From positions 1-47,773 of the IMG/VR virus record IMGVR_UViG_3300034980_000189: a DNA stretch of 47,773 nucleotides. One strand, written 5' to 3'. The notes below the pieces were generated by a model that had not been told where the DNA came from, did not search any database, and was given only the letters and a program-made list of their open reading frames with translations. Positions 1,953 to 26,054 of this stretch are shown here, piece after piece. The translations under genes were made by a program, and so were the position numbers. Origin of the DNA: a virus. How positions within the stretch are numbered: position 1 is the first letter of the stretch; every line of letters begins with the position of its first letter.

Positions 1953-4900
1953 ATGGCTATGGGTCAAGAAAAGCAGTACTCAATGAGCCAAGCTTTTGGA
2001 GGATTCGAGAAAGAAGGCGAAGAATTATTAAGTATAGATAGCGTAGATGCGCCTCTTATTCCCGTAACAGCTGAAACTCCTCCCCCCCCAGTAGAGAACC
2101 AAAATAGTATGTCTGCTATTTTTGGGTCTTTTGATGGCTCTTACGAAGAAGAGGAAGAAGAAAAGATAGCCCCACCACCGAAAGTTCTAAGTTTTAGCCC
2201 AGAGGCTTTCAGTAAGAATATAGATTTAATTAGCAACGAACTAACTGGAGCTTTAAAAGATAGATATAATACTGATAATGTTAAGGTTATAGCAAATGCA
2301 AAAAAGAGGTCTTTAAAAGAGCAGGTAGCCTTAGCGAGCGCAGGAAAATCTGGAGGTAATATATCCCTTCATAACTTTGGAGCTGGCGCAGATTTTAGTA
2401 TATATATTGATGGGAAACAAATTACTGGGAGTAAAAAAGATAGTTCCTTTGAAGAAGGAACTGAGCCATTTCAAATATTGGGAGGAATCGCAAAGAAGCA
2501 TGGATATTTCTGGGGATGGAAAGATGATAGCGGTCATGTTGCTAAAACAAGATTTGTTCATCAATTTATTGAGCAAAATCCAGATTACGCATTTACAGAG
2601 GATGCAAAAGGATACTACAATCAGAATAAAGAAAAAGCTTCTTTAAAAGCAAAGTCTTTATTAGAGAAAATGGATGAAATATATGGGGTTGATAACTCTC
2701 AAAGACAATATTACGGAGGAGAGCTAACCGAAGACCCTCTTCTAGAGCCTCTCTTTGTAGGCGCTGAAAATAGACTAGAGGAAACTTCAACCGAAGAAAT
2801 TGCGCTAAATAGTGAGATTAGCAGAATAAAATCGGGTAATAGCAATATTGATGAAGAGAATGTCTCAACTTCTCTTCCCGTGTTTGATGTTGCAGGTAAT
2901 ATTGAAAAAATAGATGTAGACGCCTATGCAGAATCAACTGGCATTGATGAAGAAAGCGCTGAACTCGAAGCCCATGAAGTTGACCTCGAAAGAAAACGCA
3001 AAGAATTAAGAGATAAATTTCCTTTAACTGCTCAATTTCAATATTCGGAAGCTCTAAATCTCCCTCTATCTACAGTCGAAAAATTAGCCGATGATATTCG
3101 CACCAATGGAGCATATCCTTATCTTGAAAACTCTCAAAATCCCGAAATTGCCCCAGAGGCTTTGGTCGTAGCGCATATCAGAGCTACAAATCTGGAAATA
3201 AGTAATGCTCCAGCTAAAGATTCATGGAATGAATTTGCAACGATAGTAAGAGATGCAGTTGGAGATGATAGTTATGGGATTCCCGGGACAGGTTCTAATG
3301 CCTTAAAAGAAGTTTTCGCAAACTCTTTACTTGGAGCTGCTGAGCTTGGAGTTGGGATGTATGAGTTTGTTAAAGTTGGTGGAGAAGCTGTCTTTATGCC
3401 AGAAAAGATGCCTGAGTTTTTAGAGATGGTAGGTGGAATGATGCATATGATGGTTGATGAACCCGCAAATTTAATAGTAGCTACGGGGGTTCATCCGCAT
3501 CCTGAATGGAATCTATTATCTGAAAAAGGACGCCAAAGAGTAAGAGACTCTCGATTAAGAATTTGGGGGAACCCTGTCGCTCCCGTTGCTATCGCAGCAG
3601 GTTGGAAGCATGTGCCAAGGCAGTTTCATAACATGAAAGTAAAGATGGCTGAAAAGCTCAACCAAGCTGAAGGTGCTTTGAATTATTTAGAGTGGAAAAC
3701 TAAGTCTGGAGATATAGTGAGTTTAGACCCTAAGGTTAAATTCACACCAGAGATGGTTGAACTTGCTGAAAACCTATCTAAAACTAAACCTCCATTCAGA
3801 GAGGCTTTAAGAAACGCAATCGTAGAGGCAAAACAAATCGAATTAAATTTTCAAGAATCTATTGCAAAACCTGGTCCAAGAAAGCCGAGGACTACAAAAA
3901 CAGACCCTAATCATAAACTAGATTTTGATAAGCCTATCCCAACGAATAAAAAGGCTCCAACTAAGAATCAGATAAAAAAAGCAAAAACATTAGAAAAATC
4001 AAGATACGACAAAAGACGCGAGGCACAACTTTCGCAAGAGCAGAAATCTTTAGTTGAAAATATATCAAGTATAGAAAAACAATTAAAGTCTCAAAAGTCT
4101 GATTTAACCCCAAGGCAGATTGAGACTTTACAGAAAGCTTTAGATGCTAGCAGAAATTTAATCACTAAAACACAAGCAGAGATGGTTCAAAGGGGAATGA
4201 ATGTGGTGGAACATCTAGAGGCTGGGATAGGGCTTACTAAAGCACAAGCTAGATGGGTTAAAAATAGATTGATAAAAGGCGGAAAGCTAGGTGTAAGTAA
4301 ATTCAATAATTTTATAAGCAGAGGTATTGGAGAAGGACCTTATAGTTTCAGTAAGAATAATAAATTCTGGACACCTGAGGTTGAGAACTTAAATACGAGA
4401 CTAACTTGGCAAAATAATAAATTAAATCAATGGGCTTTTGATAGTAAATCTACCAAATGGGACTCTATGATGGAGAACTTTTTTGATTATAACTGGAAAG
4501 CTAGAAAAGCTATTATGAACTCAGATGCTACAAATCAAATGAAGGCTGATGCTATAGCTGGATTAGAGCTATTAAGAGGCGCTAACAGTAAGACTTGGTT
4601 TGAACTTGAAAAAGGGGTTGAAAGAATAGAAAAAGGTCTTAGTCAGACTGACATATCTAAGCTAGATGGTTATGTGCAATTTCATAGAGAAATTGAAATA
4701 TATAAAAGAAATCAGCAGACAATAATAGACAAATCTAAGGAGATAGTTGAGTTGCAGGGTGGGAAGCAAACTGCTGAGGTTAAGAAAACTATAAGAAAAT
4801 TAAAAAAAGAGGTAAAGAACGCAGAAAATTATAAATATTCTTTACAGTATATAGTAGACCCAGCGACAGGAAAGCGAGTTAAGTTAGAGAAAGATGGAAA

Positions 4901-10200: not shown

Positions 10201-11448
10201 ATTACTTCCTCGGCTCCGATAGTACATCTTGCAGAATCTGACGAAAGTGGTAAAAAAGCATATTTTGGAATGTCAGGGGGTAGTGCTTATTTAGGTGGAA
10301 ACAGTATAACAAGTTTAGTATTTCAAACAGGAAGCGGTACTTCTGCCTTAACTCTTGACTCCTCTCAAAACGCCACATTTGCTGGGGCAATTACTTCTTC
10401 TCATTCAACTACAGGTGCTGCTGCTGCGACAATATCAAATACTCACGCTGACGGTTTAGGTTTGTATGTAAGAGCTGCAAGTGGAACGAATAGAGCATTC
10501 AATATTAGGGATTACACGAATGGTAATGATTTGTTTTATGTGAGGGGAAATGGTGATGTTGCTATAGGAGCAACTAAAAAATTATATCTTGATGGTGGGG
10601 GTAATAGTTATATATCAGAAATTGCAGGAGATGATATTGATATAGTGGCAGGTGGGAATCAATCAATTCAGGTGCGTGGAATTAATACCACATTTGCTGG
10701 GGCTGTAACTGTTAATAATTCAAGCCATTCTTCATTAACAATAAATTCACCTTCTGATGCAACTGCTGCTTGGACTTATTATAAACAGAATGGAACATTG
10801 AGGTGGGCTACTGGAAGGGAAGGAAATTCAACTAACTATCAAATTGCGAATGGTTCTTGGGGCGTAATGATGGATATGGAGCAAGATGGTGATGTCAAAT
10901 TTGCTGGGAAGGTTGATATTATCAAAGATATTGGTGGCTTTATCGGATATATATATAATGATAATGGTACAGGTGAAGGTTTAAATATAAAAGTTAAAAG
11001 CAATGATGCAGGACAAACAGGTAGATACTTAATTAAAGCAGAAGGCTATGGTAGTTCAGGGGCATTTACAAATAATTTCTTAGTTGATATAGATGGCAAC
11101 GCCACATTTGCTGGAACTGTAAATGCAGGTGCTGATGTAGTCGCATATTATTCATCTGACCCTACTTTAAAAGAAAATAAAGAATTAATATCAAATCCTT
11201 TGGATAAGATTGATAGTATTGGTGGATACTCATTTGACTGGAAAGAATCCGCTGAGGAATATGCTCCTCATTTAAAAGGACATGATTATGGAGTAATGGC
11301 AGATGAAATACAAGAATTATTCCCAGAGCTAGTGCAAACAAGAGATAATGGAATTAGAGCGGTAAAATATGATAAATTAGTACCACTATTAATTGAAGGA
11401 ATTAAAGAATTGAAAACAGAAATTAATCAATTGAAAGGAATAGTATAA
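7276..11448 (+). CDS. Tail fibre/spike with C-terminal S74 intramolecular chaperone, 1390 aa
   Basis: This is a Thr/Ser/Gly/Ala-rich, low-complexity fibre. It has a poly-Gly hinge near residue 90 and repeated modules of the kind LG(A/S)TSSTA(Y/H)RGD (near residues 755 and 840) and the ATFAG(A/T) motif three times in the last third. From about residue 1293 it ends in a peptidase S74 (endosialidase-type) chaperone: SSDPTLKEN with the predicted cleavage Ser at 1294, then GHDYGVMADEIQELFPE and a helical tail. In this family the chaperone drives trimerisation and cuts itself off just before that Ser-Asp. The start overlaps the preceding gene by 14 bp. The probable role is receptor binding. Confidence 0.9.
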   Translation: MPRSKYTNANLGQSPVTGPFGFPLRNNEGSENEIRVAKKSGRYTLAIKADNAWRYFDENLKVATASTLGAMKVGSGLAITGDGTLSATGGGGGGSGDITGVTLTSDSGTASDTTANVDLTIAGGNAIGTTATGTTVTINHTDTSSQASVDNSGRTYIQDITLDTYGHITAITSATESVTNTDVDVSVANLKTRLAGGFGSNAVTIGDSDDVVTIAGNLVVSGTYITADVETISVEDPLIQLAKANPADLLDVGFYAKYVDSGTKYTGLFRDASDSDKWKLFDSTGNSHEAPTTTVNTTSGFALGYLIAATFEGALVGNATTATTATNVTVADESSDTTCFPLFSTAATGNLPPKSGTNLTFNSNTGMLTATGFTGPLTGTASKTTVTDSTADTAFAVVFHDGSDALLDDTGTLTYNPNDGAFTAHTLKIDASSTSRIYVANEAGGTTPSVGTSGQAIISYAASGAPYWGNPIPSSSGSEGRIQLSGDSGVITSSSYFGFGALDASPLVLTYAGNMNITGAFEVKNGSTSAGYINFYEDSSNGTNKVTLIGPASTADITLTLPSAAGTIIGTGNSTSITSVGTITAGVWNSSTVIASAYLDADTAHLSGTQTFSGAKTFSSNLTLAANLVITGYKITANTSAGAGAGVGTAGNALLSYGAGGGVYWGTPTSGPAGSTEHVQYNASGAMAGEANFKWEYAENNLAIDGTIGVTGAVTWASGGSANANTAYTHSQVSGGVHATDWSTLALGATSSTAYRGDRGTTAYDHSQTSHAPSGAEANVSGNSGNAAVYDNGGTPTLKSGITAAEMRTAIGAGTSSLVVGTSGGTALEGDTTIISLGSTSSTAHRGDHGATAYTHSQASHAPSDANNYTLPSTVIHESELSNAVDSTSTTTGANVAGVKLAYDRAWATVDHAHNASTLTGSTLASGVTASSLTSVGTLTSLTSSGDITTSADKRLSIGTWDNAAFSGSAMYGLSITSSAPIVHLAESDESGKKAYFGMSGGSAYLGGNSITSLVFQTGSGTSALTLDSSQNATFAGAITSSHSTTGAAAATISNTHADGLGLYVRAASGTNRAFNIRDYTNGNDLFYVRGNGDVAIGATKKLYLDGGGNSYISEIAGDDIDIVAGGNQSIQVRGINTTFAGAVTVNNSSHSSLTINSPSDATAAWTYYKQNGTLRWATGREGNSTNYQIANGSWGVMMDMEQDGDVKFAGKVDIIKDIGGFIGYIYNDNGTGEGLNIKVKSNDAGQTGRYLIKAEGYGSSGAFTNNFLVDIDGNATFAGTVNAGADVVAYYSSDPTLKENKELISNPLDKIDSIGGYSFDWKESAEEYAPHLKGHDYGVMADEIQELFPELVQTRDNGIRAVKYDKLVPLLIEGIKELKTEINQLKGIV

Positions 11449-19967: not shown

Positions 19968-20114
19968 AAGGTACGCTCTACCTTCCCCTAAAGATGGGGT
20001 TGGTGTTGAGGTTTATTTCTCTCCTCGATATGACCTTTTAGTCGCTTTCAAGGTCGTAGCTGACCCCCATCTCTTTAATAATTGTTCTTGAACTGTAAGT
20101 GAAAGAACAATTAT
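19967..20114 (+). ncRNA. Candidate structured RNA leader with a three-way junction
   Basis: Almost every base is accounted for by helices. H1: GAAGGTA (19967-19973) with TACCTTC (19979-19985). P1: TAAAGATGGGG (19989-19999) with 20065-20077, 11 bp and a 2-nt bulge. P2: 20006-20011 with 20023-20028, 6 bp. P3: 20029-20037 with 20050-20058, 9 bp. H3: ATAATTGTTCTT (20078-20089) with AAGAACAATTAT (20103-20114), 12 bp. CCCC at 19985-19988 could alternatively pair with GGGG at 19996-19999. The next RBS, AAGGAG (20125-20130), follows directly, and TCTCCT (20020-20025) could pair with AGGAGA there. A cis-regulatory RNA or riboswitch is possible; no known class matched. Confidence 0.5.
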
Positions 20115-20137
20115 AAAGAAAGAAAAGGAGAACCGAT

Positions 20138-22004: not shown

Positions 22005-22028
22005 ATTTTAATAAACAAAGGAGTTAAA

Positions 22029-22370
22029 ATGGAATCTAAAGCAGTTTTCATAAGAAGCGGTAAGGTTGTTGGTAATGTAATAGGGGAGACATTCCACAAG
22101 AAAATGGATAGTAGAAAACATTTTCTACGAAAACCACCCGCAATAGCGTTTGACGTAAAGTCTATCGAGAAGGCAGAAAGATATGGCGCAAAAAGAGTAT
22201 TAGTCTTTGACACTCACAAACATGAGACTTATACTGCAACGATTGACCAAATCTACAATAAGGGGATGGATGTCAATAGAGGGTTTGGAAAGCAGATAGC
22301 ACTTCCCTTATCGTATTGGAAAATAGAATCAGCCAATGCAACACAGTTGGAGTTGTTAAATGTCGCCTAA
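22029..22370 (+). CDS. Early phage protein of unknown function, 113 aa
   Basis: It has a clear RBS (AAAGGAGTTAAAATG). Basic N-terminal half, then FDVKSIEKAERYGAKRVLVF and a C-terminal GFGKQIALPLSYW block with alternating strands. It is compact and probably a single alpha/beta domain. It overlaps the resolvase-like gene by 11 bp and lies inside the recombination cluster, which suggests DNA metabolism, but no family is recognised. Confidence 0.7.
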   Translation: MESKAVFIRSGKVVGNVIGETFHKKMDSRKHFLRKPPAIAFDVKSIEKAERYGAKRVLVFDTHKHETYTATIDQIYNKGMDVNRGFGKQIALPLSYWKIESANATQLELLNVA

Positions 22371-23122: not shown

Positions 23123-23986
23123 ATGGGGAAAGCACCCGCATTTCAGTTTTATGCGAGCGATTTTTTAAGCGACATGAAAGTCGCTACAATGAGTATGGAA
23201 GAGCGCGGAGTTTATATCACACTACTTTCGTATGCTTGGCTAGAGAACGGGTTACCACCTGTCGAACAAAAGCTAGCAAGACTGTGCGGAAACCCAGAAA
23301 ACTGGGAAGCTATCTGGGAAGTTGTTAGCGAGTGTTTTTATACCGACGATGATAACAAGCTAAAGAACGCTAAGATGGAAGAAATTAGAGAAACGCTAAC
23401 TTCATATAAGCAAAAAATGAGCGAAGCGGGTAAAAAAGGCATGGAAGCTAGGTGGAAAAATAACCAAGTTAAGGCTAGGTTAAAGCAAAGCTATAACTCT
23501 TCGTCTCCTACTTCAACTACTACTTCAAATACACATATAAAAGCAAAAGATAAAATTGATTGGGTAGAATTTATGAATAAATGGAATAGTATTTGTGGTC
23601 ATAATTTACCGCAAATAAAGAAATTAACCGACAGTAGAAAGAGAGCCATAAGAAAATTCATAAAACAAGACGTTGATGTTACAGCGTTCTTCCTTAGGGT
23701 GTCTGATTCTAGTTTTTTAAGTGGAGTATCAGAAAATAGCAGTTGGATTGCTGATTTTGATTGGGTCTTAAAAGAATCTAACTATATAAAGATATTAGAG
23801 GGAGTTTATGATGATAAGAAAGAAAAGAAAAAAGAAAAAAAGAAGAATACTCCTGTCATTTGTAGTGAATGTAGTTATAAATTCATCACAATAGAGCCAC
23901 AGCTTACAAAACTAAAGTGTGAAAAGTGTGGCGAATATGGAGTTATTTCACAGAATGAATACAACTATATATACAACAAAAAATAA
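23123..23986 (+). CDS. DUF1376-type replication-initiator-like protein with zinc ribbon, 287 aa
   Basis: I choose ATG 23123, which has AAAGGAG at correct spacing. The open frame upstream (from 23075) overlaps the previous gene and lacks an RBS. The N-terminus (FQFYASDFLSDMKVATMSME, then ERGVYITLLSYAWLENGLP) is the DUF1376/YdaU fold of phage O-like initiators. A Ser/Thr linker follows, then a middle domain with WVEFMNKWNSICGHNLPQIK. The C-terminus has two CxxC pairs (CSECSYKF, CEKCGEYG). With no phage polymerase or helicase present, it probably recruits host replication proteins. Confidence 0.75.
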   Translation: MGKAPAFQFYASDFLSDMKVATMSMEERGVYITLLSYAWLENGLPPVEQKLARLCGNPENWEAIWEVVSECFYTDDDNKLKNAKMEEIRETLTSYKQKMSEAGKKGMEARWKNNQVKARLKQSYNSSSPTSTTTSNTHIKAKDKIDWVEFMNKWNSICGHNLPQIKKLTDSRKRAIRKFIKQDVDVTAFFLRVSDSSFLSGVSENSSWIADFDWVLKESNYIKILEGVYDDKKEKKKEKKKNTPVICSECSYKFITIEPQLTKLKCEKCGEYGVISQNEYNYIYNKK

Positions 23987-23991
23987 AGAAG

Positions 23992-24060
23992 TGGGTTTGG
24001 CATTTGAAAAAGTGATAATAGGTTGGCAAATCTTCTCACCTTTCTCTAGTGTTAAACCCA
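23992..24060 (+). other. Hairpin in the 3' non-coding block (first element)
   Basis: The region 23987-24252 (266 bp) holds no convincing gene. Its first element is TGGGTTT (23992-23998) pairing with AAACCCA (24054-24060), extendable by two G-U pairs. An inner ATTTG/CAAAT (24002-24006 with 24027-24031) can also form. It starts 6 nt after the DUF1376 gene stop, so it is part of that mRNA's 3' end. Confidence 0.45.
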
Positions 24061-24073
24061 AAATATTACAAAC

Positions 24074-24176
24074 TTAGGTCTAGCGTTATCCCTTTTACTA
24101 TCATAATCCCCTCGGTTGTCATCTATCAAAAGGGGTGTGGCTTGTTTACCTCCTTTGTCAAGCCCGCTAGACCTGA
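24074..24176 (+). ncRNA. Candidate three-way-junction RNA with an anti-Shine-Dalgarno loop
   Basis: P1 is 24074-24085 with 24165-24176: 12 bp with one G-U, core GGTCTAGCG/CGCTAGACC. P2 is 24087-24096 with 24128-24137: 10 bp, core CCCTTTT/AAAAGGG, with a 31-nt loop containing CCCCTC. P3 is GGCTTG (24139-24144) with CAAGCC (24159-24164). Its 14-nt loop displays ACCTCCTTT (24148-24156), complementary to the AAAGGAG-type ribosome-binding sites of this phage and identical to the 16S rRNA 3'-end core. No promoter is obvious just upstream, so it may be processed from the early mRNA. This is inferred from pairing only. Confidence 0.45.
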
Positions 24177-24198
24177 AATTAAACCTGAATTAACAAAA

Positions 24199-24230
24199 GC
24201 TAGCACGACGCCACATTTGCTGGGGCGCTA
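24199..24230 (+). repeat. Hairpin enclosing a 19-nt word shared with the main tail-fibre gene
   Basis: CTAGC (24200-24204) and GCTAG (24226-24230) flank a loop in which 24208-24226 (ACGCCACATTTGCTGGGGC) is identical to 10370-10388 in the 1,390-aa fibre gene, on the same strand. In the fibre this encodes the recurrent ATFAG motif. Here no long frame covers it. Confidence 0.5.
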
Positions 24231-24252
24231 GTACCAACTCCGACATTACCAC

Positions 24253-24459
24253 ATGAGTAAAAAAAAAGAACATTATCACGCGATAAAGAAAGAAATATTG
24301 CACGAAATCATAGATAATTTTTTAAGGGGGAAGGGAATAGATAGCGCGAAAAGTGTAATGTACCTTACAACTGATATTTTAAACGCGCTACATAATATCG
24401 AAGATAAAATTAATAAAAATAATTATTTAGAAAGTATAAGTAATAACGATATAAGTTAA
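24253..24459 (+). CDS. Small helical protein, last gene of right-going early arm, 68 aa
   Basis: ATG 24253 has no SD. The product is Lys/Asn-rich and helical (HYHAIKKEILHEIIDNFLRG, then DSAKSVMYLTTDILNALHN). It is followed by about 80 bp with a short hairpin (AGTAAT/ATTACT) and the bidirectional terminator. Amino-acid composition looks coding, but the missing RBS lowers confidence. Confidence 0.5.
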   Translation: MSKKKEHYHAIKKEILHEIIDNFLRGKGIDSAKSVMYLTTDILNALHNIEDKINKNNYLESISNNDIS

Positions 24460-24539
24460 AGCGCTACTTTTTGGTGTATTGTGTGTATTAAGTAGTGTTT
24501 TGATTGGTGTGAGAAGTAATCTCATAAATTACTACCAAG

Positions 24540-24579
24540 AAAAATGGGGTGCTAGGATTGCCTAGCTCCCCATTTTTTT
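24540..24579. terminator. Bidirectional intrinsic terminator between convergent early arms
   Basis: AAAAATGGGG (24540-24549), T, GCTAGG (24551-24556), loop ATTG, CCTAGC (24561-24566), T, CCCCATTTTT (24568-24577). The stem is 16 bp with a single T-T mismatch and T or A runs on both flanks, so it can stop transcription arriving from either side. It lies exactly between the + early genes and the last - strand gene. Confidence 0.92.
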
Positions 24580-24593
24580 GTGTGGAAGGGGCG

Positions 24594-24824
24594 CTAGGCT
24601 TCTGCCTTACCCTTGTCGGAGTCGGATTGCAACTTAGCAAAAGCCTCAACTATTGCCTCGGTCTTATCCAAGGTAAAAGCTACTCCTTTTTTTGTGGGAA
24701 CTAAATCCCCGCTAGCTTTGTCTTCCGTCCACAGTCTAATCTGTCCGAATGTGTTGCCATTAACAATATCCTTGCTAATTTTGATTACGGATTTATTGCC
24801 CGACTTTATTTCTGCATATATCAT
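24594..24824 (-). CDS. PC4/p15-like ssDNA-binding protein, 76 aa
   Basis: The start is taken at ATG 24824 with AAAGGAG about 12 nt upstream. A longer frame would overlap the previous gene. The C-terminal part, GQIRLWTEDKASGDLVPTKK then GVAFTLDKTEAIVEAF, matches the transcriptional coactivator PC4/p15 domain ('IR.w..d..G.l.PTkKGv.l...'). Phage and bacterial relatives bind ssDNA and may affect replication or transcription. It is the last gene of the left-going arm, just before the shared terminator. The protein is slightly short but covers the whole domain. Confidence 0.8.
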   Translation of the reverse strand: MIYAEIKSGNKSVIKISKDIVNGNTFGQIRLWTEDKASGDLVPTKKGVAFTLDKTEAIVEAFAKLQSDSDKGKAEA

Positions 24825-25887: not shown

Positions 25888-26024
25888 TTATTTGTCTGCG
25901 TTCTCCACCTCGTGAGATACGTCCACTTTAATGCTATCGAGCCTATCTGAACTAAAAAAGTCGGGCAAAAGAGAAAAAACAAAAACTCTTTTACCCTCGC
26001 CATCAAAAAAAACCTAGAAACCAT
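25888..26024 (-). pseudogene. Possible frameshifted small gene at an 8-T run
   Basis: On the - strand an ATG (26024) reads MVSRFF into a run of eight T (26005-26012). Shifting frame by one there gives a protein-like continuation (FDGEGKRVFVFSLLPDFFSS and on to HEVENADK, stop 25888-25890). Without the shift a different 49-codon frame follows. There is no SD before this ATG. It could be a decayed gene, a slippage site, a sequencing error in the homopolymer, or chance. Confidence 0.22.
25963..25996 (-). other. Terminator-like hairpin in the 214-bp gap 25841-26054
   Basis: GGGCAAAAGAG (25963-25973) pairs with CTCTTTTACCC (25986-25996), 10 of 11 positions, loop 12 nt. Read on the - strand it is followed by GACTTTTTT, so it could act as an attenuator between the 106-aa and 155-aa genes. 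It overlaps the possible frameshifted gene. Confidence 0.4.
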
Positions 26025-26054
26025 ACTAGGACAACAAATTGATGACTAAAATTC

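Follow-up and report, generated by a model that had tools for sequence, protein, structure and literature searches.

A candidate three-way-junction RNA with an anti-Shine-Dalgarno loop behind the replication initiation gene of a marine-type phage

Introduction

The α-r14 ("cuckoo") RNA NfeR1 silences mRNAs through anti-Shine-Dalgarno motifs that it carries in its loops, while its stems are free to vary (PMC10746234). In the phages P1 and P7 the antisense RNA c4 (RF01695) blocks a ribosome-binding site (PMC12197685), and in phage T4 the shut-off of early mRNAs by RegB acts via the GGAG Shine-Dalgarno sequences of the early genes (PMC3014915). Here we describe a locus in phage DNA where a predicted RNA fold holds an anti-Shine-Dalgarno sequence in one of its loops, and we compare it with a relative, with more distant phages, and finally with these known systems.

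Results and Discussion

Genome context of the junction

The window, by which we mean the whole stretch of DNA analysed (47,773 nucleotides), is a 47.8-kb virus record of a marine-type phage with a GC content of 38.6% and with terminase, portal and tail genes. Its small genes form two convergent arms. The rightward arm is closed by a replication initiation gene with a DUF1376 domain, followed by a non-coding stretch (23987-24252) in which a long hairpin (domain A) precedes the junction; beyond a small ORF and a second hairpin, the leftward arm opens with a PC4-domain gene (24597-24824). This second hairpin (24540-24577), set between A/T-runs, is a probable bidirectional terminator serving both arms. 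A consensus scan found neither promoter nor terminator flanking 24074-24176, so that a junction RNA would need to be processed from a longer transcript. No tRNA or tmRNA was found, and a weak Rfam score for RsaA at 24462-24575 was discarded as lying far under the gathering score. The coordinates are collected in Table 1.

Table 1. Features of the junction locus and the best predicted target of the P3 loop (positions in the window).
Feature	Position	Strand	Basis and remarks
Ribosome-binding site of gene 22029-22370, best predicted target	22005..22031	+	Duplex -13.9 kcal/mol, 1st of 69 starts
Replication initiation gene (DUF1376)	23123..23986	+	Pfam PF07120 E 6.9e-12; PHROG replication initiation; upstream neighbour of junction
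Domain A, separate long hairpin upstream of junction	23992..24062	+	Fold; GAAAAAGT-N8-GTTGGCAA shared with L087 and L093
P1 5' arm, TTAGGTCTAGCG	24074..24085	+	Fold; L087 P1 pairs with different sequence
P2 5' arm	24087..24096	+	Fold; P2 has 10 pairs; L087 P2 at equivalent place
Apical hairpin within P2 loop, CCCCTC at 24108-24113	24103..24119	+	Fold; CCCCTC not in L087
P2 3' arm	24128..24137	+	Fold
P3 5' arm	24139..24144	+	Fold; P3 has 6 pairs
P3 loop TTTACCTCCTTTGT, 14 nt, with anti-Shine-Dalgarno ACCTCCTTT at 24148-24156	24145..24158	+	12/14 nt kept in L087
P3 3' arm	24159..24164	+	Fold
P1 3' arm, CGCTAGACCTGA	24165..24176	+	Fold; P1 has 12 pairs, one G-U
Small ORF, 68 aa, without Shine-Dalgarno	24253..24459	+	Downstream of junction
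Strong 17-bp hairpin between A/T-runs	24540..24577		Inverted repeat and fold

Several other features of the window were recorded in passing. An exact 19-nt repeat links the spacer (24208-24226) with a tail gene (10370-10388). The minus strand of the spacer reads GNVGVGTSAP, which is tail-fibre-like, and codons for strings such as GNVGIGT or GKVGVGT occur at the same place in L087 and L093, two relatives described below; these strings are possibly remnants of tail-fibre sequence. Another three-way-junction fold (P1 of at least 9 bp, -25.7 kcal/mol) lies at 19996-20067 (+), in the spacer before the early rightward operon start at 20136, and the intergenic stretch 25949-26052 (-) in the leftward arm folds strongly (z about -3.9 vs the genome). 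GCTAGC occurs 39 times in the window where base composition predicts 6, an excess that a high-order Markov model explains for the most part.

Fold of the junction

Folding reproduced the stems P1, P2 and P3, of 12, 10 and 6 bp, and the 14-nt P3 loop with its anti-Shine-Dalgarno sequence, all as proposed in the first-pass annotation. The same annotation had called the stretch gene-free, which is nearly right, but a 60-codon frame with a GTG start (24049-24231) does cross the junction, without conservation as a protein. The minimum free energy of 24074-24176 amounts to -36.3 kcal/mol (z -5.33), a value as low as which was found in none of 200 shuffles, and dinucleotide shuffling of the 190-nt spacer reached the stability of the junction in 2 of 4000 cases. 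On the scale of a whole genome such folds are less exceptional: a P1 of at least 9 bp together with an energy of -36 or below was seen 59 times in 300 shuffled strands (about 0.2 per strand), and stability alone is therefore unconvincing. What makes the junction convincing is its location together with the comparative evidence. Within the P2 loop, a predicted 6-bp apical hairpin (24103-24108/24114-24119) takes in part of the CCCCTC motif.

A relative that keeps fold and loop

A terminase search of IMG/VR returned 65 loci, some of them 92-98% identical, among which one 17.2-kb contig (L087) extends to the junction locus. Compared with the window, identity is 56% for the replication protein and 70% for the PC4 protein, and the order of elements is the same (replication gene, domain A, junction, small ORF, hairpin, PC4). 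Taken alone, the L087 region folds into a three-way junction with a P1 of 11 bp, a P2, and a P3 with a 15-nt loop; its energy is -41.1 kcal/mol, and none of 4000 spacer shuffles is as stable. The first-pass annotation had suggested looking for covariation in relatives, and L087 provides it: its stems differ in sequence, yet it keeps both fold and loop. When P1 of the window and P1 of L087 are aligned from the junction outwards, both bases have changed at 8 of 11 pairs and pairing is kept throughout. Identity outside the P3 loop lies at or below the shuffled level (35/68 vs 38.8 expected; 6/18 vs 9.4), whereas the P3 loops, TTTACCTCCTTTGT in the window and TTTTCCTCCTTTATC in L087, agree at 12 of 14 positions, CCTCCTTT included (P 0.0012 vs shuffled loops). 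Since loop and pairing are retained against an otherwise shuffled background, the fold and the P3 loop appear to be what selection kept, as read from the sequences of two genomes, the window and L087. L087 is the only other genome found with the same P3 loop. The CCCCTC motif of the second loop is absent from it, and the role first suggested for that motif was dropped on this account.

These comparisons bear on two other explanations. The first is that frames of 60-66 codons, which span the element in the window and in L087, encode a short peptide and that the fold is incidental. CCTCCTTT is indeed read in the same frame in the window and in L087, where the end of the frame and the following ORF overlap in ATGA; against this, the two proteins have no more than 8 aligned residues in common, near the loop (E 0.059), the GTG start has no Shine-Dalgarno sequence, and the stems carry compensatory changes, so that we leave this explanation only a slight chance. 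The second, a chance fold that happens to hold a chance anti-Shine-Dalgarno sequence, could appeal to the rate of about 0.2 such junctions per strand of this genome, but is barely credible given that shuffling either spacer by itself seldom or never yields so stable a junction (2/4000 for the window, 0/4000 for L087) and that the loop is conserved at the same position. An RNA element is well supported, and 24074-24176 very probably forms a real structure at the level of RNA. In the modelled fold the P3 loop is presumed to be the seed of the RNA, and it is likely to be its functional core.

L093, domain A and further searches

The contig L093 is close to L087, and its replication protein is 56-57% identical. 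Here the junction module is absent, and domain A leads straight into the small ORF. Domain A itself is present, the sequence of its inner stem being visibly changed with respect to L087, and between it and the replication gene sits a Mom-type DNA-modification gene (3883-4572, +; Pfam E 1.9e-36, PHROG E 8.8e-52). With the junction missing and a Mom-type gene present, this segment of the spacer is a variable island in which the RNA of the junction is dispensable.

A scan with the PC4 alignment gave no further close relatives, the 24 matches of a domain A motif scan included no relatives but L087 and L093 (both already known), a GTDB scan found no close relative, and a DNA search of the RNA against phage and plasmid collections gave no match. 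A DNA-pattern match to P1/P2 in L066 was rejected as chance: the contig is unrelated, richer in GC and lacks the element. The apical loop of domain A that is common to L087 and L093, AAAGGTATGTGGTAG, has a Shine-Dalgarno-like string followed directly by ATG TGG TAG; with a spacing of one base, a translated minigene is unlikely.

Structured elements in more distant DUF1376 phages

Distant loci were collected by DUF1376 alignment. In most of the related phages a single stem element stands out, 130-475 nt beyond the DUF1376 stop, and these elements fall into two classes. Class 1, represented by 18 distinct sequences (among L101-L141 and L232, L233, L240), is likewise a three-way junction, 74-83 nt in length, with the fixed loop segments TACYCACAACTAC and CTCCGCAT. 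Its covariation score is 0.206 vs 0.139 for shuffled alignments (none of 500 reach it; slid and reshuffled alignments served as controls), and 8 pairs have changed on two sides. Class 2 (L096, L097, L100, L104, L105) is a long hairpin whose tetraloop is CTCC, within CTCCTCC. Many counterparts have CTCC in loops or joints. Pattern matches to class 1 in L228 and L239 lie inside coding genes and were rejected. In most of the related phages (L096-L141) the motif GGTTGGCRC follows the DUF1376 stop within 30 nt; in the window, L087 and L093, domain A holds GTTGGCAA. The reading of GGTTGGCRC as a short peptide was set aside, because frame-shifting indels between L100 and L105 speak for a nucleotide motif.

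Across the class-1 alignment, cells with G-U outnumber those with A-C by 33 to 4, which identifies the structure as a rightward RNA rather than DNA or the other strand. This count also weighs on the possibility that the window element works as DNA, for instance as a replication origin or a single-strand initiation hairpin beside the initiator gene. Such a role would suit its place downstream of the DUF1376 replication gene, and the opposite strand of the window element folds almost equally well (-35.8; z -4.9 as DNA); L087, on the other hand, clearly favours the rightward strand (-41.1 vs -33.9), and L093 has the replication gene without any junction. We hold a DNA-level element to be very improbable.

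Like class 1, the window junction follows the DUF1376 gene within a rightward operon, and what it has in common with class 1 is this position and the general architecture only. CCTCCTTT is not presented by the counterparts in more distant phages, and the class-1 covariance model R1 detected neither the window nor the L087 element, its matches on the window being at chance level; on this result the kinship is positional only. The conservation expected among relatives holds for L087 and fails for L093, and the distant counterparts have loops of their own (CTCCGCAT, CTCCTCC). None of the 4227 Rfam families matched in the window or its relatives. Whatever their function, the DUF1376 locus of these uncultivated phages thus harbours covarying structured RNAs that stand outside every Rfam family. 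That the window RNA and classes 1 and 2 belong, as rapidly diverging members, to a single phage RNA system fixed at a locus behind the replication initiator, directing CUCC-type loops to ribosome-binding sites and ending early translation as an RNA counterpart of T4 RegB, seems to us rather unlikely.

The distant elements are also relevant to the main rival of an action in trans, namely a cis element in the early mRNA: an intercistronic site for processing, stability or protein binding (for instance bound by a phage protein, or cut by RNase III or RNase E), the loop of which serves a protein or local pairing. The junction lies inside a transcription unit without a promoter or terminator of its own, and the distant counterparts are often found 10-30 nt ahead of the following start codon, immediately in front of the Shine-Dalgarno sequence of that gene, with highly conserved loops that are unlike a plain anti-Shine-Dalgarno. 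The gene after the element, however, varies among the distant phages while an element persists, which disfavours control of one particular neighbour. The ORF that follows the element in the window and in L087 lacks a Shine-Dalgarno sequence that could be controlled, so that a cis switch on ORF 24253 is unlikely, and a cis role leaves the near-exact retention of the 8-nt anti-Shine-Dalgarno unexplained. Overall we judge a cis element somewhat unlikely.

Predicted pairing with ribosome-binding sites

Pairing energies were computed between the P3 loop and the 25 nt around each predicted start, the genes being labelled early or late from their position and strand. The mean is about -9.3 kcal/mol for early starts (n=20), -5.9 for late ones (n=23) and -4.3 for random 25-mers, a difference that is partly trivial, since Shine-Dalgarno sites are generally stronger in early genes. 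The early sites do fit best, and the complementarity to the early AAAGGAG sites pointed out in the first-pass annotation is borne out to that extent. At the best predicted target, the start site of a gene of unknown function (22029-22370), 13 of the 14 loop positions are complementary to acaaaggagttaaaATG (22005-22031). In the early part of L087 that is covered, the best predicted target is the replication gene itself (-12.0); the best targets are thus early in both phages, but they are different genes.

The P3 loop might, on the other hand, be a decoy of the 16S rRNA 3' end that titrates mRNAs or initiation components globally and so favours late transcripts with weak Shine-Dalgarno sites. 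ACCTCCTTT corresponds to the consensus 16S tail, all strong early sites fit it, and no single target is common to both phages; a decoy would nevertheless demand a very high copy number of the RNA, and we consider it improbable.

Proposed mechanism

The reading we prefer, with a probability of roughly 0.4, is that of a phage antisense-type RNA which would occlude early ribosome-binding sites in trans, by analogy with α-r14 or c4. The rightward early transcript would include the RNA of 24074-24176 close to its 3' end, ahead of the terminator hairpin, and this RNA would be cut out of the end of that transcript. The rigid three-way junction of P1, P2 and P3 would hold the P3 loop UUUACCUCCUUUGU open for pairing with the AAAGGAG-type ribosome-binding sites of early mRNAs, mainly those of the phage itself, and this pairing would block 30S binding. 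Early translation would then be damped after transcription has reached the end of the operon. What the sequences themselves show is the fold, its retention despite divergence, the conserved loop and a better predicted pairing with early than with late starts; production of a stable RNA and its action in trans on ribosome-binding sites are inferences.

Comparison with known systems

Like the α-r14 RNAs, the window RNA combines a compact fold with an anti-Shine-Dalgarno sequence unpaired in a hairpin loop, and the loop is conserved while the stems vary. The α-r14 RNAs silence mRNAs at the translation start, a likeness that for the window RNA is only proposed. The exposure of the anti-Shine-Dalgarno in a loop is seen in the predicted folds of both the window and L087. 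To our knowledge, α-r14 has no phage members. The α-r14 RNAs are encoded by alphaproteobacterial genes and consist of three separate hairpins, each with an unpaired CCUCCUCCC, and not of a three-way junction (PMC10746234). The window RNA departs from that definition, having a single loop with ACCUCCUUU set in a three-way junction.

With c4 it has in common that it is a structured RNA encoded by a phage, and the loops of c4 are believed to base-pair in the vicinity of a ribosome-binding site and so to block translation (PMC12197685, PMC2864571). c4, in contrast, controls immunity through the single target ant, whereas the seed of the window RNA is a generic anti-Shine-Dalgarno; the covariance model of c4 (RF01695) gave no match in the window. 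By the features tested, the window RNA is a member of neither the α-r14 nor the c4 family.

RegB is a protein nuclease, and the agent proposed here is an RNA, but the outcome would be alike in that early translation is turned off. If the proposal is true, this phage masks the ribosome-binding sites of its early genes with a folded RNA instead of a protein, and its early-late translational switch would be accessible to simple reporters.
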